Assembly: GCA_003223555.1 (NCBI GenBank)
Contig: QHVM01000091.1
Span: 1-53,737 of the forward strand
Direction: 5' to 3'
Length of the DNA: 53,737 nucleotides
From: Acidobacteriota bacterium
GTDB taxonomy: Bacteria; Acidobacteriota; Vicinamibacteria; Fen-336
A model generated the notes under the pieces. That model had not been told where the DNA came from, made no database searches, and saw only the letters and a program-made list of their open reading frames with translations. This document shows, piece by piece, positions 5,129 through 31,937 of the stretch; position 1 is the stretch's first letter; every line of letters begins with the position of its first letter. The position numbers were made by a program, and so were the translations under genes.

Positions 5129-6262
5129 CTAGATGTTGAAGAATATCTCGGGCATCGCGACGATGTATTTCAGGTTCAGGGTCCAGCGCAGGACCATCTT
5201 GATCGGCAGGGCGAACATGGCCAGGACGAGGAACACGAACACCGCGAAGCGCCAGGGTCCCATCTTCTCGTAGTACTTCCGCAGGCCGACGTTGAACCTC
5301 ACGCCGCCCGGCAGGCTCACCTCACGGCGGGAGCGGGCGAGAAGCACCGGCAGCGCGCCGACGTAGAAGAGCACCAGCACGATGCCGGGCAGCTCGCGCA
5401 CGAACATGTTCAACCCGCTGATGTTGGCGTGGAAGAGCTTGACCCAGAAGTATTCCGACAGGTTGACGTTGTTGAGGGCGAGCAGCTTGTGGAGGTCCCA
5501 GTACTCGTAGGGGCCGAAGAAGTTCCAGTTGGGGCCGCGCAGGAACGTGCCGAGCATGACGAGCAGCACCCAGAGGATCACGAAGCCGAAGAGGAACAGC
5601 GTGATCTCCACCCGCCGCTCGCGGAACGTGAAATAGCCGTTCCCCCTCGGGTTGGTGTCGAGGTAGGGGATCGCCATCAGGCCGACGATGATCAGGCTCG
5701 GGAACACCACCCCGGCCAGCCACGGATCGAAGTAGACGAGCATCTCCTGGAGGCCCAGGAAGTACCAGGGCGCCTTGCTCGGGTTCGGCGTGCGGGCGGG
5801 GTTGGCCGGCTCCTCGATGGGGGCCTTGAAGACGATCCCCCAGATGACGAGCACGATGATGCCGATGACCATGCACACCATCTCGGTATACACGAGGTCG
5901 GGCCACACCCACGTCTTCTCCGCCTCCTTCGGGGTGGCCTCGAGGGGCGGCTCGCCGCGGGCGATGCGGTCGTCGTTGCCGTAGGCCTGGCTCATGCTCA
6001 GGAAGAAGAAGAAGCCGATCAGGAACAGCATGGCCACGATCGGGATGTTGTCGGGCTTGGCGACGATGAGGCGGAAGTTCGGGTCGAAGGTCGACACGGC
6101 CATGAAGGCTGCGGCCACCACGCCGACCGCCAGCCCGACCCGGGGCCGCCAGAAGGCGCGGCGGCCGATGACGAGGAAGAACGTCACCGCGACCAGGGTG
6201 ATGAAGATCGGCGGGTTGGTCAGCGAGTTGACGACGCCCTTGAGGGCGTTGACCGCACCCAT
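5129..6262 (-). CDS. Cytochrome b C-terminal domain protein (subunit IV-like)
   Basis: 377 residues starting at ATG 6262, which overlaps the preceding cytochrome b stop as TAATG, so the two are translationally coupled. It carries several hydrophobic segments. The motif [16 protein letters not shown] corresponds to the PEWY Qo-site loop of cytochrome b C-terminal halves, here with Ala in place of Glu. The protein is longer than a petD-type subunit IV (about 160 residues). The extra N-terminal hydrophobic helices and a C-terminal helix suggest additional membrane anchors. With the b6-like protein it should form the split cytochrome b core that oxidises quinol. Reading further upstream in this frame only covers the b6 gene, so I do not include it. 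Confidence 0.88.
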
Positions 6263-7068
6263 TACAGGGGCCCCGAGATGCCCCCGTCCTTGCGGACGCG
6301 CCAGAAGTGGACGGCCATCAGCACGCCGGCCACGAGCGGGATGCCCACGCAGTGCAGGACGTAGAAGCGCAGGAGCGCGCCTTCCCCGACGAAACGCCCC
6401 CCGAGGAGCGCGAAGCGGGCGTCCGAGCCGGCGTGGACCATCTTCACGTCGCCCAGGGCGAGGAGCTGCGAGCCCGGCCCCTCGTGCCCGAGCACCGGCG
6501 TCGCGCGGGCCATGTTCGAGCCCACCGTGATGGCCCAGATCGCGAGCTGGTCCCACGGCAGCAGGTAGCCGGTGAAGGAGAGCAGCAGCGTGAGCACGAG
6601 GAGGATGACGCCCACGTTCCAGTTGAACTCGCGCGGCGGCTTGTAGGAGCCGGTCATGAACACCCGGAACATGTGCAGCCACACCGTGATGACCATGGCG
6701 TGGGCGCCCCAGCGGTGGATCTCGCGCATGATGCCGAGCGGGACCTGCTCGGCCAGGTCCACGATGTCCATGTAGGCGTAGGCCACCGTGGGCCGGTAGT
6801 AGAACATCAGCAGCAGGCCGGTGAACGTCTCGACCAGGAACAGGAAGAAGGTCAGCCCACCCATGCACCAGGTGAACTTCAGCCGGATGCCGCTCTTGCG
6901 GATCTTCACCGGATGGAGGTGGAGGAAGACGTTGCTCATCACCACCAGCACCCGGTTGCGGTTGTTGGCGGGCATCCCGTGCCGGAAGATCGAGCGCCAG
7001 ATCTGGGTCTCGGTGATGTAGTCCCAGGTCCGGCTCAGGAACGGCTGGGGCGGCTTCGCGGTCGCCAT
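6262..7068 (-). CDS. Cytochrome b6-like N-terminal cytochrome b subunit
   Basis: 268 residues with four main membrane helices. Two His pairs bind the two b hemes. In the first, IHRW and WLHMFRVF are spaced H-x13-H; in the second, VLHC and AVHFWRV are spaced H-x14-H. The x14 spacing of the second pair is that of b6f-type rather than mitochondrial-type cytochrome b. The N-terminus is followed by an amphipathic region before the first helix, as in b6. It lies 7 nt downstream of the Rieske gene and overlaps the subunit IV-like gene by one base. It transfers electrons across the membrane during quinol oxidation. No cytochrome c1 or f gene is present; the octaheme protein probably replaces it. Confidence 0.93.
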
Positions 7069-7075
7069 GAGCCTC

Positions 7076-7768
7076 CTACGCCTTCAGGAACGCCTCCGGC
7101 TTGGTCCACTCGCCCTTCTCGTACTGGAACTTCACCGACTTGTCGACCAGGATCTGCCCGTCGTCGGCGAGCACGATGCGGGCCCGCTCCAACGGCCGGG
7201 GCGCCGGGCCCTCGAAGTTGATCCCGCTCATGTAGAACCCGCTGCCGTGGCAGGGGCACTTGAACTTGTTCTCCGCGGTCAGCCAGTTCGGCGAGCAGCC
7301 GAGGTGCGTGCAGACCGCGATGAGGGCGTAGAAGCCGTCGGCGGTGCGCACGATCCACACCCCGAAGGCGTCCTTCCAGCGCACGTCGACCTCGCCGACG
7401 TTGTACTCGGCCGGGAAGCCCGCCTTGAAGGACTGGGGCGGCTCGAAGAGCACGTTGGGGAAGAGGAAGCGGGCGGTGGCGACGAGGCTGGAGGCGCAGG
7501 CCGCCGAGAAGGCGACCCAGCCCACCGGCAGCGACCACTTCACGAAGCTGCGCCGGGAGACGCCTTCACGCCCGGCGGGGGCGGCGGTCCTGGCCGCGGT
7601 CGAGGCGGCGACACCGGGGCCGATGGTGTTGGATCGGCCGTAGGGCAGGGCGCCGGGCGTCGTTCCCTTGTCGGGCTGCAACGGCGTCATCGGCGGAGAG
7701 CCGACGGGGCCCGACCTCGCCCCGACCGGGGGAGTCGCCTCTGCGGCCGCGTCCTTCTCGTCAGCCAT
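7076..7768 (-). CDS. Rieske iron-sulfur protein
   Basis: 230 residues. CTHLGC at about 153-158 and CPCHGSGF at about 171-178 are the two Rieske motifs that bind a 2Fe-2S cluster through two Cys and two His. A twin-arginine-like SRRSFVKW at about 71-78 precedes the single membrane helix, consistent with Tat insertion of a folded protein. The first 65 residues are a disordered Ala/Pro-rich extension, longer than usual. This is the first gene of the operon, with a near-consensus promoter about 50 nt upstream. It takes the first electron from quinol at the Qo site of the cytochrome b subunits encoded next. Confidence 0.95.
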
Positions 7769-17268: not shown

Positions 17269-17390
17269 CTCGACCAGGCGCCGCTTCTCGCTCCAGACGG
17301 ATTCTTGCCGCCGCCCACCGTCTTCAGCACGCCTTCGGCGAGCTTCTCGATCTTGGCCGCGGTCTTCTTGGAGATGGCGTCCTTTTTCAC
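17269..17390 (-). other. top6A: Displaced 5' end of topoisomerase VI A
   Basis: From GTG 17390 the frame reads MKKDAISKKTAAKIEKLAEG, then VLKTVGGGKN, after which it leaves the family. One extra C in the CC run at 17299-17300 would continue it as KNPVWSEKRRLVEM straight into MGSQKQKRYFFNV of the main frame. I see no slippery heptamer, so a programmed frameshift is unlikely. Sequencing error or a real mutation are the alternatives. If real, translation would have to start at 17268 and lose part of the N-terminal region. Confidence 0.75.
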
Positions 17391-20300
17391 GACTCTTCCG
17401 CCTCCTCGGCCTCGGCGCTCGCCTTCGCTTTCGCCTTGGCCTCGCGCGCCTCGAGCTCCATCGCCTTTTCTTCCTCCTTCATCTCGGCCGCGGTCACCTT
17501 GTGCGCCACGTCGAGGAACTCCCTCTTTATGCGGTCCGGCTTCCGTCCCGTGATCCTTCCGATCGCGATGGCCACCTCCTCGATGTACAGCTCGAAGATG
17601 CTGCGCCGCTGCGCCTGGTAGTCGGCCGCCTTGCGCTTGCGGATGAAGGCGGCCAGCTTGCGGCCGCACTCCTGCGCCGCGAGCTGGATCTCCTTGATGA
17701 TCTCCGGATAGTGGGCCACCGCCTCCTTGGACTCGCTGGTGAACGGCACCCAGACCGAAGCGATGTGCACGAGCAGCGCCATCGGTCCCACCGGTAGCGA
17801 GCCCTTGGGCTGGCTGAGCAGGTAGTTGCGCCAGTCCGTGCGCACGATGGCGTCGGTGATGCCGCATGCCCCGCGCTGGAATAGGAGCGGGACGCGGTTG
17901 GCGAAGCGGAACAGCTCGATCGTCTTGTCCGGGGGCCAGCTTCCGCCGTAGGCGAGGCCGACCTCCACCTGGAAGGGGTTGCCGCGGTAGACCTTCGGCG
18001 AGCGGGTCACCGTGGCGATGAAGTAATTGTGACCCTTGATCTTCTCGACCCCTTCCTCGGGCGGCGCGTCGGGAATCGTGGGCTGCTCCGGCGCCGGCGG
18101 TGCCTTGCCGGCCTGCTTCCCCGCCGCGGGGGCCTTCCCGGCCTTCTTCGCCGGCTTCATCGCGGCCGAATCCAGGTCGAGCTGGGCGCTCTCGTCCGCG
18201 CTCTCGCCCTCGCTCTCGATCACGTTCAGGAAGCTGACGAGCCCCTTCCGCATCAGCTCGTCGCCGATCGGGCTCAAGCAGTTCGTCGGGGGGTTCATGA
18301 GCCGGGTCTCGGCGATCGCCTTGTGCAGCTCCTCGGCCATCGCGCGGCTCGCGCCGAGGGCCCGCGGCCGGACCACCCTCTTGCCCCACGCGACCTTCCC
18401 CAGGATCTCGCCGGCCGTCCCCGCGGAGACGCGGCTGAACGTCGTCTGCAGGAAGCCGCGCACGTCGTGGCTCTTCGACTCCCGCGCCATCAGCATGAGC
18501 GCGCCCAGCTCGACGCCGTGGGGGTGCGGCTTGATCTCCATCGCCTCCTTGGGAAGCTCGTCCGCGGCCCGCGGGAAGGTCAGCATCTCGTTGCCCGGCT
18601 GGTCGACGTTGGGGTCCGACCGCTGGGCCGCGCTGACGGGGCGCGTGTAGTGGATCGTGGCGTGGGGGTTGGCGAGCGCGGTGTGCTCGACGTAACGGTT
18701 GACGAAGCGCTGGCCCTGCTGCCAGTTCGCCACGATCTCCAGCTCGACGCGCGTCCCATGGTCCAGATGCCAGTCGTCCAGAGCCTCGTCGTGAGTCACG
18801 ACCGGCTCGTTCTTGCGCGTATCGAGCTGGATGTCGAAGACGTGGGCCGCCTTGCGTCTGCCCACCCGGCTCGTGACGCGGATCGGCTTGCCGGTCGTGA
18901 GCTGTCCGTACATCGCCGCCGCGGAGATGCCAATGCCCTGCTGTCCGCGGGAGTTGTGGCAGGCAATCGCACCGTCACCGGCTACAAAGTTTTCGCAACC
19001 GGGGATGGACAGGTCGTAGACGAAAACATGATCTCCGTGCACACGCCGCACCTGGTTCACGCGCAAGAGGCACAGGTCTGAGGCCCCGAACGACCGCACC
19101 GCCGCAGCGTCGTGTCGCAGGTGTTGGACCTTGGGGGTCGCGGCATACCCTCCGGGTTCGACCTCCAGGAGATATCCTCGTTCGACGATGTGATTCGTGA
19201 GGTGTCGTGTCACCCGGCCACTCGCCAGGGCGGACAATTGCGGAAGACCATAAGTCGTTCCGACCGCAGCCCCCATGACGATCCCGACCGACTTCTCGGT
19301 GCCCGCCGGGCCGGTTCCCAGCCCGGCTGCGCGCATGATCGACTCGGGCTCGGCGGCGACTCGCACGCCGGCCTCCACCCCTGCGAGCGCCAGCTTCCGC
19401 GTCGGGAAGAGCCGGTAGCGATTCTGCCGCCCCTGAACGTGGCGCCGCTGGTAGACGTGCGAAACCCCGATGTCGAACCCGTGGACGTTGAGCCGCCAGG
19501 ACGTGGAGAGGTTGCGTCCCAGGCCGCGGTGACGAATTGGCCCGCAACGCGATGGCACCACGCCCTGCAGCAGCCAGAGAACCTCGACGTCCTCGACCAG
19601 CCTGCGACTGGCGGAGCCGAATATCAGGACTTCACGGGTCTTTACCCGATGGCCGTCTCCCAGGTACAGACCATCGAGGAAGTGCTGCCGCATGTCACGA
19701 TCGGCCTGGAATACGAAAGCCGGCACCTTCTTGTTCTTCGCACCCCGTCCGCACCACGCGGGAAAAAGCAGGGACGTAAGGCCGCCGAAAACCTTCACCC
19801 GGACGGCGTTGCGAGTTCGTGGCTCGACGGTGGTCGACAGGCCAAGCGCCCGCGTGGTGGCAACGACCTCCTCGACGAGGTTCGTCTCTCGCGATGAGAA
19901 CGTGAAGCCGACCTGGCGAACGTCGCAGTGCCCTTCGGCCACGTAGAGCCCCAACAGGCGCATCAGAGCCTCGCTCACGACCCAGGTGACGGGAGTCTCT
20001 CCGACGGCGCCGTGGTGATAGGTTCGCAACCGGCCGCCGGCGCACTCCGCTTCGAGGCCCAGGCGCTTCACCAGCAGCGCAGGAAGGAAGCGTTGCCGCC
20101 GATATTGGAACCACGAATCGTCCAGCACCTCGATGGGCGTCCCATCACTCGCTGCCAACCGAAAGAAGCGTCGCGACTTGTCCGTCCCGAGTTTCCGATG
20201 CGCGGTCGTGAACCTCGCGGCCAGCGCGTCGAAAACCGCCTCGGGAATGCCGTATACGAAGACCCACCGAGGAGCCAGATCATCGGCACGGAGGTGCGAG

Positions 20301-21292
20301 AGGAGGTTCACGTTGTCGAGATGGACTGGCTCCGGTAGCCGCCGTGGCGCCACGATATAGTCGCCCGCTCGCAGCGAGCGCGCCTCTACCTCCGCCACCT
20401 GGCGCAGGCCTGGATCGTAGGTGAAGAGGCTGTGGCAGCCGGTCACGCGAACTCGCTTGCCGCGCTCGGTTCGCACTTCGAGAACCTCGTTAACGCGTCG
20501 GTGGCGAATCACGTGGGACACGATGCGCCAGTCGTAGCGCCAGGTGAACGGATCAAAGGCCGGGGCGCGGATGCCGAGCGCGCTCACGTCTTTGACCTCT
20601 TCGTCGGGTGTGAGCAACGAGTCGATGAGCCGGCCGATGGGAAGCCGCTCGAGCCGGCCGCCGCGCTCGATGAGCACATTCTGGTCGGCCGTCAACGACT
20701 GCTTCAGCCGATGGAACTTCGAGCCGTACAGCAGCTTTCCGAAGATCTTCGGCACCTGCGCCTTGACGATCCCGGGCCCGTTGTCCTGGACGACGATGCG
20801 AAAGCGGCCTTCGCCTTTCGTCAGCTCGGCATCCCGCGGCTTGGCTTCCAGTCCCAGGTCGTGCACTTCGACGTACAACTCCGGCAGGATGCCGGCCTCC
20901 TCGCAAGCGTCGAGCGAGTTGTCGACGGCCTCCTTGATGGTGGTGAGGAGCGCCTTCGAGGGATTGTCGAAGCCGAGCAGGTGGCGGTTCTTGACGAAGA
21001 ACTCGGAGACCGAGATCTCCCGCTGCTTCTGGGCCAGCGTCTCGGCAGTCACGCGGCGGGTCGGCTCGCGCGGCGGGGCGGGCGCCGGAAGAGGCGTCGG
21101 CGCGACCGGCGGGAGCGCGGCCGTCGCCGGCATCTTCACGACCTTGCCGGCGTCGTCCTCGAAGAGCGCGAGCTGCGGGCGGGCCGGCTTGCGACCGCGA
21201 CCGACTGCGGGTTTCTTCTGTGCCGCTGCCTTGGCCACCGGCGGAATCGTAACCCGGGACGGGGCGAAGGCAGGACCACGCGGGAGACGCAC
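17387..21292 (-). CDS. top6B: DNA topoisomerase VI subunit B containing an intein
   Basis: 1301 residues as drawn; without the 582-residue intein the host protein is about 719. GHKL ATPase motifs are visible: IKEAVDNSLDA (N box), VQDNGPGI (G1), and, split by the intein, RLKQ plus SRGQQGIGIS (ATP-lid/G2 region). The H2TH and transducer domains follow, with VRTDWRNYLL and GHNYFIATVTRSPKVYRGNP recognisable. Residues about 1035-1085 are an Ala/Lys/Pro-rich linker not typical of the family, and the C-terminus is a charged Glu/Ala/Lys helix. ATP binding dimerises the subunit and gates DNA transport by subunit A. GTG 21292 leaves only 25 nt before the divergent kynA gene, so the GTG near 21238 is a plausible alternative start. 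Confidence 0.95.
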   Translation of the reverse strand: MRLPRGPAFAPSRVTIPPVAKAAAQKKPAVGRGRKPARPQLALFEDDAGKVVKMPATAALPPVAPTPLPAPAPPREPTRRVTAETLAQKQREISVSEFFVKNRHLLGFDNPSKALLTTIKEAVDNSLDACEEAGILPELYVEVHDLGLEAKPRDAELTKGEGRFRIVVQDNGPGIVKAQVPKIFGKLLYGSKFHRLKQSLTADQNVLIERGGRLERLPIGRLIDSLLTPDEEVKDVSALGIRAPAFDPFTWRYDWRIVSHVIRHRRVNEVLEVRTERGKRVRVTGCHSLFTYDPGLRQVAEVEARSLRAGDYIVAPRRLPEPVHLDNVNLLSHLRADDLAPRWVFVYGIPEAVFDALAARFTTAHRKLGTDKSRRFFRLAASDGTPIEVLDDSWFQYRRQRFLPALLVKRLGLEAECAGGRLRTYHHGAVGETPVTWVVSEALMRLLGLYVAEGHCDVRQVGFTFSSRETNLVEEVVATTRALGLSTTVEPRTRNAVRVKVFGGLTSLLFPAWCGRGAKNKKVPAFVFQADRDMRQHFLDGLYLGDGHRVKTREVLIFGSASRRLVEDVEVLWLLQGVVPSRCGPIRHRGLGRNLSTSWRLNVHGFDIGVSHVYQRRHVQGRQNRYRLFPTRKLALAGVEAGVRVAAEPESIMRAAGLGTGPAGTEKSVGIVMGAAVGTTYGLPQLSALASGRVTRHLTNHIVERGYLLEVEPGGYAATPKVQHLRHDAAAVRSFGASDLCLLRVNQVRRVHGDHVFVYDLSIPGCENFVAGDGAIACHNSRGQQGIGISAAAMYGQLTTGKPIRVTSRVGRRKAAHVFDIQLDTRKNEPVVTHDEALDDWHLDHGTRVELEIVANWQQGQRFVNRYVEHTALANPHATIHYTRPVSAAQRSDPNVDQPGNEMLTFPRAADELPKEAMEIKPHPHGVELGALMLMARESKSHDVRGFLQTTFSRVSAGTAGEILGKVAWGKRVVRPRALGASRAMAEELHKAIAETRLMNPPTNCLSPIGDELMRKGLVSFLNVIESEGESADESAQLDLDSAAMKPAKKAGKAPAAGKQAGKAPPAPEQPTIPDAPPEEGVEKIKGHNYFIATVTRSPKVYRGNPFQVEVGLAYGGSWPPDKTIELFRFANRVPLLFQRGACGITDAIVRTDWRNYLLSQPKGSLPVGPMALLVHIASVWVPFTSESKEAVAHYPEIIKEIQLAAQECGRKLAAFIRKRKAADYQAQRRSIFELYIEEVAIAIGRITGRKPDRIKREFLDVAHKVTAAEMKEEEKAMELEAREAKAKAKASAEAEEAEES
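18953..20698 (-). mobile_element. Intein with LAGLIDADG homing endonuclease in top6B
   Basis: Residues 199-780 of the top6B product, 582 residues. It starts with Ser (SLTADQNVLIERGGRL, block A) and ends AIACHN, followed by Ser +1 of the extein (SRGQQGIG). Block B is VTGCHSLF (T-x-x-H). Block F is VYDLSIPGCENFVAGDG. Two dodecapeptide motifs, LLGLYVAEGH and FLDGLYLGDGH, mark a LAGLIDADG endonuclease, with Glu and Asp as the catalytic acids. All splicing residues are present (Ser 1, block B His, penultimate His, terminal Asn, Ser +1), so it should splice. The insertion point lies in the ATP-lid motif, typical for inteins. Removal leaves RLKQ-SRGQQGIG, a normal family sequence. Confidence 0.95.
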
Positions 21293-21317
21293 CCGCGAGT
21301 GGTACGATGCGGCTCAA

Positions 21318-22124
21318 ATGCCGCTCACGTACGGGAAGTACCTGAAGGTGCCGGAGCTGCTCTCGCTGCAGCAGGGCCTTTCCGACCCGCCCCATCATGA
21401 CGAGCCGCTCTTCATCATCATCCATCAGGTATACGAGCTGTGGTTCAAGCTCGCGCTGCACGAGGTCGACAGCGCCTTCGCCCACCTGGACGGGGACCGG
21501 GTCGGGGAGGCGACGCGCCTGCTGCGCCGCGTGGTGGAGGTCCAGCACCTGCTCATCAGCCAGGTGCGCATCCTGGAGACGATGCGGCCCCAGGACTTCC
21601 TCGGCTTCCGCTATCACTTGAACCCGGCCTCGGGCTTCCAGTCGGTGCAGTTCCGCGAGCTGGAGTTCCTGCTCGGCCTCAAGGACCCGGCCGTCTGCGG
21701 ACGCCTCGTCTGCGATCCGGAAGAGGCGCGGCGCCTGCAGGCTCGGCTGGCCGCGCCGTCGCTCGCCGACGCGGTCGATGCGCTGCTCGTCCGGCGCGGG
21801 TTTCCGCGGGACGCCGGCTCGCGGCCGGGCGGCGCCAGCCAGCCGGAGCCGTGGCGGCTGCAAGCGCTCGTCCGGATCTACGAGGAGCCCGAGGCCCACG
21901 CCGACCTGGTGGCTCTTTGCGAGGTCCTCATCGAGGTGGACGAGTGCCTGGCCCTCTGGCGCGCGCATCACGTGCAGATGGTGGAGCGCATGATCGGGGC
22001 CAAGCGGGGGACGGGTGGCAGCGACGGCGTCGGCTACCTGCGCTCGACGCTGCCCAAGCGGGCCTTCCCGGACCTGTGGCGGGTGCGCACGCACCTCGGC
22101 CAGGAGCCGGAGGCCGACCGGTGA
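21318..22124 (+). CDS. kynA: Tryptophan 2,3-dioxygenase
   Basis: 268 residues from ATG 21318. FIIIHQVYELWFKLALHEVDSA carries the active-site His that contacts the indole. LWRAHHVQMVERMIG followed by AKRGTGGSDGVGYL carries the heme-ligand His and the substrate loop. The enzyme opens the indole ring of L-tryptophan with O2 to give N-formylkynurenine, the first step of the kynurenine pathway. Length and motifs match the family closely. No other kynurenine-pathway gene is adjacent. It is divergent from top6B and followed after 13 nt by a small membrane protein. Confidence 0.96.
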   Translation: MPLTYGKYLKVPELLSLQQGLSDPPHHDEPLFIIIHQVYELWFKLALHEVDSAFAHLDGDRVGEATRLLRRVVEVQHLLISQVRILETMRPQDFLGFRYHLNPASGFQSVQFRELEFLLGLKDPAVCGRLVCDPEEARRLQARLAAPSLADAVDALLVRRGFPRDAGSRPGGASQPEPWRLQALVRIYEEPEAHADLVALCEVLIEVDECLALWRAHHVQMVERMIGAKRGTGGSDGVGYLRSTLPKRAFPDLWRVRTHLGQEPEADR

Positions 22125-22137
22125 GAAGGAGGCGGAG

Positions 22138-22569
22138 ATGAAGACGGCAAGCTGGATCCTGATCGCGATCGCGGCGGGCCTGACGCTGCTCGGCGGTCTC
22201 GTGTCGCTTGGCGTGGCCTACGGCTCGACCCGGGACCAGATCGGACCGGCGAGCCTGGGCGAGTTGTCGGGCGCCAGCCCGGGAGTGGGCACCGCGGTGC
22301 GCGCGCGACGGGCGACCGCCGCCGCCTATGCGGCCGGCTTCGGCACGCTGCTCCTGGCCATCACGCTGGGGCCCTACCGCCGCGGCGACTTGTGGGCGTG
22401 GTGGGCGATCCTGGCCGGCGTCGTCGTGGAGTCGGTGCTGAGCATGCTGCGCGTGCCCTTCCTCGGCACCCGAGCCCGGGCGGGACCGGCGCTGCTCCAG
22501 CTCGTCGTGGTCGGCGTGGGCCTGGCGCTCGGCGCCGGCCGGCTGCGGGGAGCGGATCCTCCGAGCTGA
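22138..22569 (+). CDS. Small polytopic membrane protein
   Basis: 143 residues from ATG 22138, with GGAGGCGGAG just upstream. About four hydrophobic helices are seen: WILIAIAAGLTLLGGLVSLG, AAAYAAGFGTLLLAITLG, WAWWAILAGVVVESVLSM and LLQLVVVGVGLALGAG. No family is recognised. It follows kynA by 13 nt and is probably co-transcribed. Its 3' 196 bases overlap the tail of the convergent hypothetical gene. Confidence 0.7.
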   Translation: MKTASWILIAIAAGLTLLGGLVSLGVAYGSTRDQIGPASLGELSGASPGVGTAVRARRATAAAYAAGFGTLLLAITLGPYRRGDLWAWWAILAGVVVESVLSMLRVPFLGTRARAGPALLQLVVVGVGLALGAGRLRGADPPS

Positions 22570-22961
22570 TCCGGCTCGACGACCGGCCTTTCCGGCGGGA
22601 CCACCGCCGCCGGCGTGGCGGTCGCTTCGCCTGTCCGCTCGCCGAACACCAGACGGCGGATCGTCCGCAGGTCGTTCAGCAGCCGGCGGCTGGTCGTGAC
22701 GTGGACCTTCAGTTGGGACAGCTTGTAGGTGGCGAGCTGGATCGCCTCCAGGCGTCGCGCGGCTCCGGCCGCGACGGCGTGGGCGACCTCGGTCTCCAGG
22801 TCCCCGCGCGCCTCGTCCACCGACTCGAGGAGCAGCGCGAGGTACTCGATGGCGCTTTCGATGCTTGCGAACGTCGTCTCGGTCCCGAGCTTGTGTTTCA
22901 CGCGTCCTCCCGAAAGCTGCACGTCGAAGAATAACGGGACGTCGATGAGAGCAGAGCCCAT
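22374..22961 (-). CDS. Conserved-looking helical protein of unknown function
   Basis: 195 residues from Met at 22961 (MGSALIDVPLFFDVQL). Residues 1-110 look like a real globular helical protein (TTFASIESAIEYLALLLESVDEA, RLEAIQLATYKLSQLKVHV). From about residue 125 the sequence becomes Pro/Ser/Thr/Arg-rich and overlaps the convergent membrane-protein gene for 196 bases, so that tail is probably accidental read-through. No family is recognised. Frame and start are moderately supported; the true end is not. Confidence 0.5.
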   Translation of the reverse strand: MGSALIDVPLFFDVQLSGGRVKHKLGTETTFASIESAIEYLALLLESVDEARGDLETEVAHAVAAGAARRLEAIQLATYKLSQLKVHVTTSRRLLNDLRTIRRLVFGERTGEATATPAAVVPPERPVVEPDQLGGSAPRSRPAPSARPTPTTTSWSSAGPARARVPRKGTRSMLSTDSTTTPARIAHHAHKSPRR

Positions 22962-23032
22962 ACTGGCACGGCCGGAGCGGGAAGCAAAGCGCAATCTTCC
23001 GTAGAATCCTCCCCGGCCCGAGCGAGGTGCCC

Positions 23033-24781
23033 ATGCGGCCAGCACTCTGCGTCCTGCTCCTCTCGGCCTCGGTGGCGAGCGCCGAGACCCACCGCTTCAA
23101 GCCCACGGTGGGATATCCCACCTTCGCCGTCCGTCCCCCGGTGCTGACCGTGAAGCCGGGCGACGTCGTCGAGAGCGAGAGCCTGTGGGGCGAGTGGTAC
23201 GAGAAGCCGGGCGGGAAGTGGCCGGGCGAGGTGGGTCCGATCGCCATCGAGGGCGCCGAGCCGGGCGACACGCTCGTGGTGGAGATCCTCAAGGTCCGGC
23301 CCAACCGCGACACGGCCGTCTCCACCCAGGGCGGCCGGTTCGGGGCCCTCGTGCCCGACGGGGCCACCGCCATGCTCAACGACGTGTTCCCCCGCGGGCG
23401 CTACGTCTGGCGCCTCGACCGCGAGCGCATGACCGGCACTGTCGACCTCCCCGGCAGTGCGACCAAGTCGATCACCGTGCCGCTCCGGCCGATGCTCGGC
23501 CGGGTGGCCGTGGCCCCTGCCGGCGACGCGGCCTTCGACGGGCTCTGGCCGGGGAACTTCGGCGGCAACATGGACGCCTCCGACGTGCGGGAGGGGACGA
23601 CGGTCTACCTGCCGGTGTTCCACGCCGGCGCTCTCTTCTACTTCGGCGACGGCCACGCGCTCATGGGCGACGGCGAGGTGTGCGGCTCGGGGCTGGAGAC
23701 GGCCATGGACGTCGCGTTCCGCTTCGGCCTCGTCAAGAAGAAGACGATCGGGTGGCCGCGCTTCGAGGACGCCGAGCACCTGATGGTGGCCGGCAGCGCG
23801 CGGCCGCTCTCCGACGCGCTCCGGATCGCCTTCGTGGAGCTGATCGACTGGCTGGTGGCCGACTACGGCTTCGGCAAGGCCGACGCCTACCAGCTCGTCT
23901 CGCAGGTGGCCGTGGCGCGGGTGGCCAACATGGTCGACCCGCTCTACACCGTGGTCGCCAAGTTCCCCAAGCGCTTCCTGCCCGCGCGGGCCGGGGCCGC
24001 GCCGGGCGGCGGCGCCTCGGCTTCGCCCGGCGTCCGCCTCGGCGACATGCCGTGGACGGAGGCCGAGCGGGTGCTCACCACTGACCGCGTCGTCGTGCTG
24101 CCGCTCGGCGCGGGCGTCAAGGAGCACGGCCCGCATCTTCCGTTGAGCAACGACCAGATCCTGGCCGAGTACGAGGCGGCGCGGCTGCTGGCCGCGCGCC
24201 CGGTGGCGCTCCTGCCGGCGCTCACCTACGGCCACTACCCGGCCTTCGTCGAGTACCCCGGCACCGTGTCGCTCTCGTTCGAGACGCAGAAGCGGCTCGT
24301 CGTCGAGATCTGCCGCTCGATCGCGCTGTTCGGCCCGCGCCGGTTCTACGTCCTCAACACCGGCGTCTCGACCCGGCCGCCTCTGCAGGCGGCCGCGGAG
24401 GAGCTGGCCCGGGAGGGGATCCTGATGCGTTTCACCGATCCGCTCCTGGCTGGCAAGGCGGCCGAGGACGAGGTGCGGCAGGAGAAGTACGGCACGCACG
24501 CCGACGAGGTGGAGACGTCGATGATCCTCTACATGGCGCCGGCCTCGGTCCGCATGGAGCGCGCCGTCGCCGACGGCGGCGTCGTCCGGCCAGGCCCGCT
24601 CACCCGCGACCCGCAGCGCACCGACCGCCACTACTCGCCTTCCGGGGTTTTCGGGGATCCGACGCTGGCGACGTGGCAGAAGGGCGAGCGGATCACGGAA
24701 GCCGTCGTGGCGTCGATCCTGAAGGACGTGGACGCGCTGGCGGCCGCGCCACTGCCGGCCGGTTCGCTGCATCCGCAGTAG
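23033..24781 (+). CDS. Secreted acetamidase/formamidase-creatininase fusion protein
   Basis: 582 residues from ATG 23033 (GTG 23027 is the alternative), with a signal peptide MRPALCVLLLSASVASA. Residues about 18-320 are an FmdA/AmdA-type acetamidase/formamidase domain: EGAEPGDTLVVEIL, GGNMDASDVREGTTVYLPV and GDGHALMGDGEVCGSG. Residues about 335-575 are a creatininase-type metal amidohydrolase domain: GVKEHGPHLPLSNDQ carries the Glu, His and Asp metal ligands and HADEVETSMI another conserved block. The NGH segment that supplies a further His ligand reads NTGVST here. Both domains act on amide or cyclic amide bonds, so a linked two-step export-side reaction is imaginable but not shown. Confidence 0.85.
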   Translation: MRPALCVLLLSASVASAETHRFKPTVGYPTFAVRPPVLTVKPGDVVESESLWGEWYEKPGGKWPGEVGPIAIEGAEPGDTLVVEILKVRPNRDTAVSTQGGRFGALVPDGATAMLNDVFPRGRYVWRLDRERMTGTVDLPGSATKSITVPLRPMLGRVAVAPAGDAAFDGLWPGNFGGNMDASDVREGTTVYLPVFHAGALFYFGDGHALMGDGEVCGSGLETAMDVAFRFGLVKKKTIGWPRFEDAEHLMVAGSARPLSDALRIAFVELIDWLVADYGFGKADAYQLVSQVAVARVANMVDPLYTVVAKFPKRFLPARAGAAPGGGASASPGVRLGDMPWTEAERVLTTDRVVVLPLGAGVKEHGPHLPLSNDQILAEYEAARLLAARPVALLPALTYGHYPAFVEYPGTVSLSFETQKRLVVEICRSIALFGPRRFYVLNTGVSTRPPLQAAAEELAREGILMRFTDPLLAGKAAEDEVRQEKYGTHADEVETSMILYMAPASVRMERAVADGGVVRPGPLTRDPQRTDRHYSPSGVFGDPTLATWQKGERITEAVVASILKDVDALAAAPLPAGSLHPQ

Positions 24782-30794: not shown

Positions 30795-31937
30795 ATGAGC
30801 TGGCGCGACTGGGCGGGCTACTTCGCGGTCAGCACCTACGAGGTCCACCACGAGCGCGAGTACAACGCGATCCGCAACGCGGCCGCCCTCATCGACATCT
30901 CGCCGCTCTTCAAGTACCGGGTGAGCGGCAGGGACGCCACCCGGCTCGTCGACCGCGTCATCACCCGCGACGCGGGCAAGATCGCGGTCGGCCAGGTCGC
31001 CTACACGCACTGGTGCGACGGCGAGGGCAAGGTGATCGACGACGGCACCGTGTCCCACCTCGGCCCCGACCTCTACCGCTGGACGGCGGCCGAGCCCAAC
31101 CTGCGCTGGATCACCCAGAACGCCCTCGGCCTCGACGTGAAGGTCGAGGACATCTCGGACCGGACGGCGGCCGTCGCGCTGCAGGGCCCGACGAGCCGGG
31201 CGGTCCTGGAATCGTGCGCCGAGACCGAGGTCCCCCTCGGCTCGCTGAAGTACTTCCGCGTCACCCGCGGGCGCGTCGGCGGCATCGCGGTGGAGGTCTC
31301 CCGCACCGGCTACACCGGCGACCTCGGCTACGAGGTGTGGGTCGACGCGCCGCGGGCGGTCGAGCTGTGGGACGCGCTCATGGAGGCGGGCCGCCCCTAC
31401 GACGTCACGCCCGCGGGCATGCTGGCCCTCGACGTGGCCCGCATCGAGGCCGGGCTCATCCTGCTCGACGTGGACTACGTCGGCTCCAAGAAGGCGCTCG
31501 TGCCGTCGCAGAAGTACACGCCGTACGAGATCGGGCTCGGCCGCCTCGTGCACCTCGACAAGGCACCCTTCGTCGGCCAGTCGGCCCTCAAGAAGGAAGC
31601 GGCGGAGGGCCCGAAGCGGCAGCTCGTCGGACTGGAGGTCGACTGGGACCATCTGGAGCGCCTCTACGACGAGGCCGGCCTGCCTCCTCAGCTCCCGGCC
31701 ACCGCCTCGCGCCTTTCGGTGCCCGTCTACCGGCACGGCCGCCAGGTGGGCAAGGCCACGAGCACGACCTGGTCCCCGACCCTGAAGAAGATGATCGCCC
31801 TCGCCACCGTCGCGTCACCGGCGGCCGTGATCGGCACCGCCCTCGAGATGGAGCTGACGGTCGACCACCAGCGCCGGCAGGTGAAGGTGACGGTGGCCAA
31901 GCTGCCGTTCTTCGATCCGCCGCGCAAGCGGGCCTGA
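30795..31937 (+). CDS. GcvT-family aminomethyltransferase-like protein
   Basis: 380 residues from ATG 30795. HEREYNAIRNAAALIDISPL, then GKVIDDGTVSHLG (with the conserved folate-site Asp), SRTGYTGDLGYEVW and LALDVARIEAGLILLDVDY match the T-protein/folate-dependent methyltransferase fold. True GcvT acts with H and P proteins, which are not here. This branch is usually annotated as aminomethyltransferase family and may demethylate another amine. The 45 nt upstream encode GTAFHPRTSALCES in frame, which looks like the usual N-terminus of this branch, yet no ATG, GTG or TTG is in frame there. Confidence 0.87.
   Translation: MSWRDWAGYFAVSTYEVHHEREYNAIRNAAALIDISPLFKYRVSGRDATRLVDRVITRDAGKIAVGQVAYTHWCDGEGKVIDDGTVSHLGPDLYRWTAAEPNLRWITQNALGLDVKVEDISDRTAAVALQGPTSRAVLESCAETEVPLGSLKYFRVTRGRVGGIAVEVSRTGYTGDLGYEVWVDAPRAVELWDALMEAGRPYDVTPAGMLALDVARIEAGLILLDVDYVGSKKALVPSQKYTPYEIGLGRLVHLDKAPFVGQSALKKEAAEGPKRQLVGLEVDWDHLERLYDEAGLPPQLPATASRLSVPVYRHGRQVGKATSTTWSPTLKKMIALATVASPAAVIGTALEMELTVDHQRRQVKVTVAKLPFFDPPRKRA

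Follow-up and report, generated by a model that had tools for sequence, protein, structure and literature searches.

A fused acetamidase/formamidase and creatininase-fold protein of an Acidobacteriota bacterium, apparently exported, and the creatininase-family clade with altered metal ligands to which it belongs

Creatininase is a well-studied amidohydrolase that works with two metals and assembles as a hexamer, and few substrates are known for the wider family that bears its name. We take Glu34, Asp45 and His120 to be the ligands of one of these metals, and His36, Asp45 and Glu122 are presumably those of the other. The protein considered here is encoded at 23033-24781 on the forward strand of the window, by which is meant the whole stretch of 53,737 nucleotides that was analysed. 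Its reading frame is open from ATG to stop and translates into 582 aa, although the list of open reading frames also offers a GTG start 6 bases upstream of the ATG at 23033. The layout of the protein is as follows.

23033..23083, + strand: signal-peptide-like start MRPALCVLLLSASVASA, then ETHR (translation, by eye; low pLDDT at 1-14)
23084..23986, + strand: acetamidase/formamidase domain, aa 18-318, with the GGNMD and GDGHALMGDGE motifs intact (Pfam PF03069, phmmer, Foldseek)
23987..24025, + strand: Ala/Gly/Pro-rich linker, aa 319-331 (pLDDT <50 at 320-329)
24026..24745, + strand: creatininase-fold domain of what we call the KEHG/NTG clade, aa 332-571 (Pfam PF02633, Foldseek, clade support 100/98)

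The initial annotation proposed that two families of amide hydrolase are joined in one secreted protein, and this description holds. Both Pfam families match the translation of the single frame, FmdA_AmdA (PF03069) at 7e-26 (91.5 bits against a cut-off of 27) and Creatininase (PF02633) at 1.2e-49 over residues 338-564 (169 bits against a cut-off of 31.3). Read by eye, the N-terminus looks like a signal peptide, and the relatives L226 and L261 have similar hydrophobic starts. A predicted model built from 47 aligned sequences has a mean pLDDT of 86.7 and a pTM of 0.57. Since pLDDT falls below 50 at residues 320-329, the model suggests two confident domains separated by a loose linker, and because of the pTM value the arrangement of these domains is not to be read from it. 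When the predicted creatininase half was compared with solved structures by Foldseek, members of the creatininase family, including 1j2t, 1q3k, 3lub and 3no4, were matched at 1e-13 to 8e-12 with TMt of 0.71-0.76 and probability 1.00.

For the acetamidase half the nearest solved structure is 5ubu_A (phmmer 1.3e-54, Foldseek 9e-33). In an alignment with 32 stand-alone relatives, the window protein agrees with them in all 24 of the columns that they conserve to 95% or more. Asn175 is invariant in the 32 stand-alone rows and is replaced by Pro or Arg in three of the four fusions found, the window's copy being the one that retains Asn; in the fusion at L003 two more strongly conserved columns are also changed. 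We suggest that this half hydrolyses small amides outside the cytoplasm, with substrates that may resemble formamide or acetamide and could possibly include lactams.

The join itself is rare, and genuine. It is present in 4 of 149 genomes of the class, namely the source genome (G000), G001, G003 and G008, and the same four were recovered among 60 relatives, the source genome included. All of them belong to one family of 14 genomes (4/14). The three further copies are 74-88% identical to the window protein, that of G001 being cut by the end of its contig. Assembly error, a missed stop or a frameshift can in practice be ruled out by the same join in these three further genomes. A pattern scan of contigs, which detects close relatives only, returned 74 loci, of which two (G003 and G008) have both halves in one frame. 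Outside the fusion, the closest acetamidase halves among the class genomes are stand-alone proteins at 79% (G293) and 77% (G247) identity, and the closest creatininase half among the relatives is likewise stand-alone (G005, 68%). Separate neighbouring genes for the two halves were not found in the other class genomes that have both at E <= 1e-40; there they lie on different contigs (for example in G285, G301, G308 and G313). The suggestion that the two domains cleave one substrate in sequence is therefore unsupported, given these scattered unfused halves and a locus in G005 that has the creatininase half alone. In the literature searched on creatininase, acetamidase and kynurenine formamidase, no description was found of the fusion or of the metal-site variant described below. 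The fusion is a lineage-specific one, of an ordinary kind.

Comparison with G005 also gives some indication of how the join arose. At an orthologous-looking locus in this genome a small membrane protein is directly followed by a stand-alone creatininase, which groups with the fused ones (support 99/97). It appears that the join arose within one family, an acetamidase having been added in front of a creatininase-like gene that was already there, with an exported product, such as that of G005; the direction of this change, as against a loss in G005, is the part we infer. By a simple Nei-Gojobori count of the window gene against those of G001, G003 and G008, the acetamidase half has dN/dS values of 0.08-0.19 and the creatininase half values of 0.16-0.42; the count gives 0.24 against the stand-alone creatininase of G005 and 0.09 against the stand-alone acetamidase of G293. 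Both halves are under purifying selection, the creatininase half less so, its protein sequence evolving about two to three times faster.

Alignment of the second half with creatininase places the following residues at the metal site and near it.

24119..24121, + strand: Lys363 at the Glu34 position (Lys in 22/27 clade rows, never Glu)
24125..24127, + strand: His365 at the His36 position, retained (26/27 clade rows)
24152..24154, + strand: Asp374 at the Asp45 position, retained (25/27 clade rows)
24356..24373, + strand: NTGVST loop, in which Gly444 aligns with His120 and Ser446 with Glu122 (residue 444 is other than His in 27/27 clade rows)
24497..24499, + strand: His489 at the position of the catalytic His178, within GTHADEVETS, retained (27/27 clade rows)
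24605..24607, + strand: Arg525, clade-specific (15/15 Lys rows and 0/95 Glu rows; 25/27 in the larger clade set)

The window's V-K-E-H aligns with L-E-Q-H of creatininase, so that Glu34 becomes Lys363 and Gln35 becomes Glu364, and N-T-G-V-S aligns with N-G-H-Y-E. Of the residues expected in a binuclear member of the family, His36, Asp45 and His178 are present and the ligands Glu34 and His120 are not, Lys363 and Gly444 standing in their places. The Glu, His and Asp ligands had been thought to be retained: this is true of His36 and Asp45 and mistaken for the Glu, since Glu364 is one position off and falls on Gln35. It had also been proposed that NTGVST replaces an NGH-type loop and removes a metal-binding His, which agrees with Gly444 at the His120 position. 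A His from another loop might have filled the site, but no clade-specific His is present among the positions that the Lys rows conserve to 85% or more. The solved relatives 3lub and 3no4 retain Glu and His at positions 34 and 120, and the titles of creatininase PDB entries among the Foldseek matches name E122Q mutants of the Mn-Zn and the Zn-Zn type.

It could be argued that the creatininase half is nonetheless an ordinary two-metal enzyme in which the lost ligands are replaced, for example by a carboxylated Lys363 together with Glu364 and Asp491. In other amidohydrolases a carboxylated Lys does serve as a metal ligand, and none of these three residues varies among the 15 Lys rows. However, the equivalents of both Glu34 and His120 are gone with no clade-specific His to compensate, and some members of the clade do not have the Lys, which makes this explanation very improbable.

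The altered residues are not peculiar to the fusion; judged from the alignments, their loss defines a clade. The comparison covered 116 distinct PF02633 domains, which came from the family, class and phylum of the window, from the phylum to which a Cyclobacteriaceae genome belongs, and from a number of loci that we chose. Glu34 is present in 97 of these; position 120 is readable in 96 of the 97 and is His in 86, and the ten exceptions comprise six of type HLEP., two of type NQE.., one Gln and one Ser. At L002, of the HLEP. type, a His lies two columns earlier. Lys34 is present in 16 of the 116, and in the 15 readable at position 120 that residue is Gly (14) or Ser (1) and never His. The Lys rows form one clade (SH-aLRT 98) even when the motif columns are masked, so the pairing of Lys34 with a residue other than His120 represents one ancestral change since retained rather than repeated independent evidence. 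At two loci from the window's family (L201 of G004 and L202 of G002) Gln stands in place of Glu34 and other metal residues are missing as well (QAHHH and QAEHQ). At six others (L106, L107, L168, L169, L192 and L193) an open frame of about 780-930 aa carries a Glu-type creatininase domain at its C-terminus, and in the two of these that were scanned (L192 and L168) Pfam returned nothing for about 500 residues upstream of the domain.

The clade was extended by 12 loci, these being all further matches to the creatininase half at E <= 1e-40 listed from the class genomes, to give 27 rows, none of them shorter than 170 residues. The larger tree supports it at 100/98, which bears out the idea of a distinct subfamily, one that is found mainly as stand-alone genes whose products are apparently exported. 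Its members come from Acidobacteriota, Cyclobacteriaceae/Flammeovirgaceae (Bacteroidota) and KSB1. Besides the 22 Lys, position 34 is occupied by Arg in one row and by Ile and Val in two each. Lys363, Glu364, Asp491 and Arg525 are clade-specific invariants in the 15 Lys rows, and such invariants, together with dN/dS below 1 in both halves, argue against simple decay.

The four Ile/Val34 rows all belong to one family, f52. Two of them are also without Asp45 and one of these is without His36 as well, which suggests that some members of the clade probably have no hydrolytic activity. A C-terminal DUF4440/SnoaL-like domain was detected by Pfam in three proteins, two of them below the DUF4440 cut-off, and the fourth f52 Ile/Val row has a C-terminus that is similar by eye.

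L254 4836-6191: clade creatininase with a C-terminal DUF4440/SnoaL-like domain
L256 4016-5377: clade creatininase with a C-terminal DUF4440/SnoaL-like domain
L258 4416-5855: clade creatininase with a C-terminal DUF4440/SnoaL-like domain
L259 4632-6083: clade creatininase with the same C-terminal type, by eye

At L252, also of f52, a sequence of similar C-terminal type is present, again by eye, as a separate short frame downstream.

These observations bear on the possibility that the creatininase half is catalytically dead and acts as a binding or oligomerisation module, joined here to an acetamidase and elsewhere to a SnoaL-like domain. The loss of both ligands, Glu34 and His120, in 27/27 clade rows, the further losses of Lys34, Asp45 and His36 within the clade, the SnoaL-like fusions and the faster evolution of this half would all fit such a role. 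Against it, the half is under purifying selection and the His178 position (27/27), Asp491 (27/27), Glu494 (26/27) and Arg525 (25/27) are retained, but this retention may equally mean binding only. We consider a dead module a serious contender, though one somewhat short of an even chance.

The genes upstream of the fusion raise a different possibility.

21297..22124, + strand: tryptophan 2,3-dioxygenase (Pfam PF03301, 5.8e-62)
22138..22569, + strand: small hydrophobic (membrane-type) protein without Pfam match

Both lie upstream of the fusion in the window, G001 and G008, and a homologue of the small protein is the one beside the stand-alone creatininase of G005, where a different, longer dioxygenase (52% identity over 135 aligned residues) is placed divergently. 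In G003 the fusion has neither neighbour, and since a minus-strand ORF (22374-23045) intervenes between the upstream genes and the fusion in the window, an operon is unlikely there. Elsewhere in the window, a topoisomerase VI B subunit gene at 17387-21292 on the minus strand is interrupted by an in-frame intein (Intein_splicing 5.8e-17) that carries LAGLIDADG homing endonuclease domains.

It is conceivable that the fusion is an exported deformylase of N-formylkynurenine, an aryl formamide, acting in partnership with this dioxygenase. The recurrent proximity of the two genes would suit such a role, as would the enrichment of the dioxygenase in genomes with the clade: 6/6 against 3/8 within the family (Fisher p 0.03; the 14 genomes are close kin) and 15/19 against 5/20 elsewhere (p 0.001; the 20 controls, chosen by us, are all from the class, mostly have smaller genomes than the clade genomes and were screened only for the absence of a listed query match at E <= 1e-40). 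The association is suggestive only, a lead for which kinship, genome size and the choice of controls can account. Moreover, tryptophan 2,3-dioxygenase is a cytoplasmic enzyme while the fusion has a signal-peptide-like start, a protein resembling arylformamidase (KynB) is encoded elsewhere in the genome (a full-length match to TIGR03035 at 3.8e-53, scoring 180.5 bits where the cut-off is 223), and, as noted above, the fusion of G003 does not lie next to the dioxygenase and a minus-strand ORF intervenes in the window. This deformylase role therefore seems to us, if anything, the least probable of the explanations considered.

Among hand-picked neighbourhoods, stand-alone clade genes were found near S15 and S9 peptidases (L220), M28 (L230), M1 (L232) and Amidohydro_1/3 (L250, L251 and L257), which is a lead towards a peptidase-related role for the clade. 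The other neighbours scanned are unrelated (PLD-like, CHAT, MurB, PPK2, decarboxylase, FAD enzyme, GCV_T, crystallin-type and amino-acid permease). A GCV_T (glycine-cleavage T-like) gene occurs in the vicinity of a clade creatininase in the window (30795-31937, by Pfam) and at L224 of G005 (6122-7657, by similarity only), and directly upstream of one at L253 (3111-4502, by Pfam).

The explanation we favour, and which we would place evenly between acceptance and doubt, is that the protein is an exported two-domain hydrolase of small amides in which the N-terminal half is catalytic and the creatininase-fold half holds at most one metal. This second half would have lost the site that Glu34 and His120 make in creatininase, and the Lys at position 34 probably places a positive charge where the lost metal was. 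Because it retains His36 and Asp45 together, and the position of His178 too, it may be a one-metal hydrolase or may bind a ligand without cleaving it. A likely role is the scavenging of nitrogen, or of one- or two-carbon acids, from amides released in amino-acid or peptide breakdown. For the clade as a whole we propose, more tentatively, an exported lineage in which one metal was exchanged for lysine in a single ancestral step, leaving a one-metal or metal-free hydrolase or an amide-binding module that was later joined to different partners, an acetamidase/formamidase in one family and a SnoaL-like domain in another, mostly in tryptophan-oxidising bacteria. Such a clade, which has lost the ligands of one metal together, is still conserved and is apparently exported, is more telling than the fusion itself. 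It is spread over Acidobacteriota, Bacteroidota and KSB1 and has acquired partner domains on two or more occasions, and its loss of one metal site as a unit offers a direct test of the purpose of the second metal. Annotation at the family level would label these proteins creatininase, a name that their sequences do not support.

Of the systems nearest to it, the window protein may be set first beside the stand-alone KEHG/NTG proteins (such as L085, L030, L031 and L033), with which it shares the full motif set, 50-68% identity and, where these were read, signal-peptide-like starts; they lack the acetamidase half, and some of their relatives have the C-terminal DUF4440/SnoaL-like domain instead. 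With the FmdA_AmdA family and 5UBU of Yersinia enterocolitica it shares the whole aligned domain, 36% identity in the structural match and the GGNMD and GD.HA.. motifs, but it differs in its fused creatininase domain and signal-peptide-like start. Fold and family are held in common with creatininase (1J2T/1Q3K), MftE (TIGR03964) and IolN (NF041098) by Pfam, NCBIfam and Foldseek, as are the His36, Asp45 and His178 positions, whereas Lys for Glu34, Gly for His120, Ser for Glu122 and the signal-peptide-like start set it apart. Its scores fall far below the NCBIfam equivalog cut-offs for all three (73.9/235 bits for creatininase, 103.3/172 for MftE and 33.3/245 for IolN). The window protein marks a little-studied branch of the creatininase family rather than a new kind of system.
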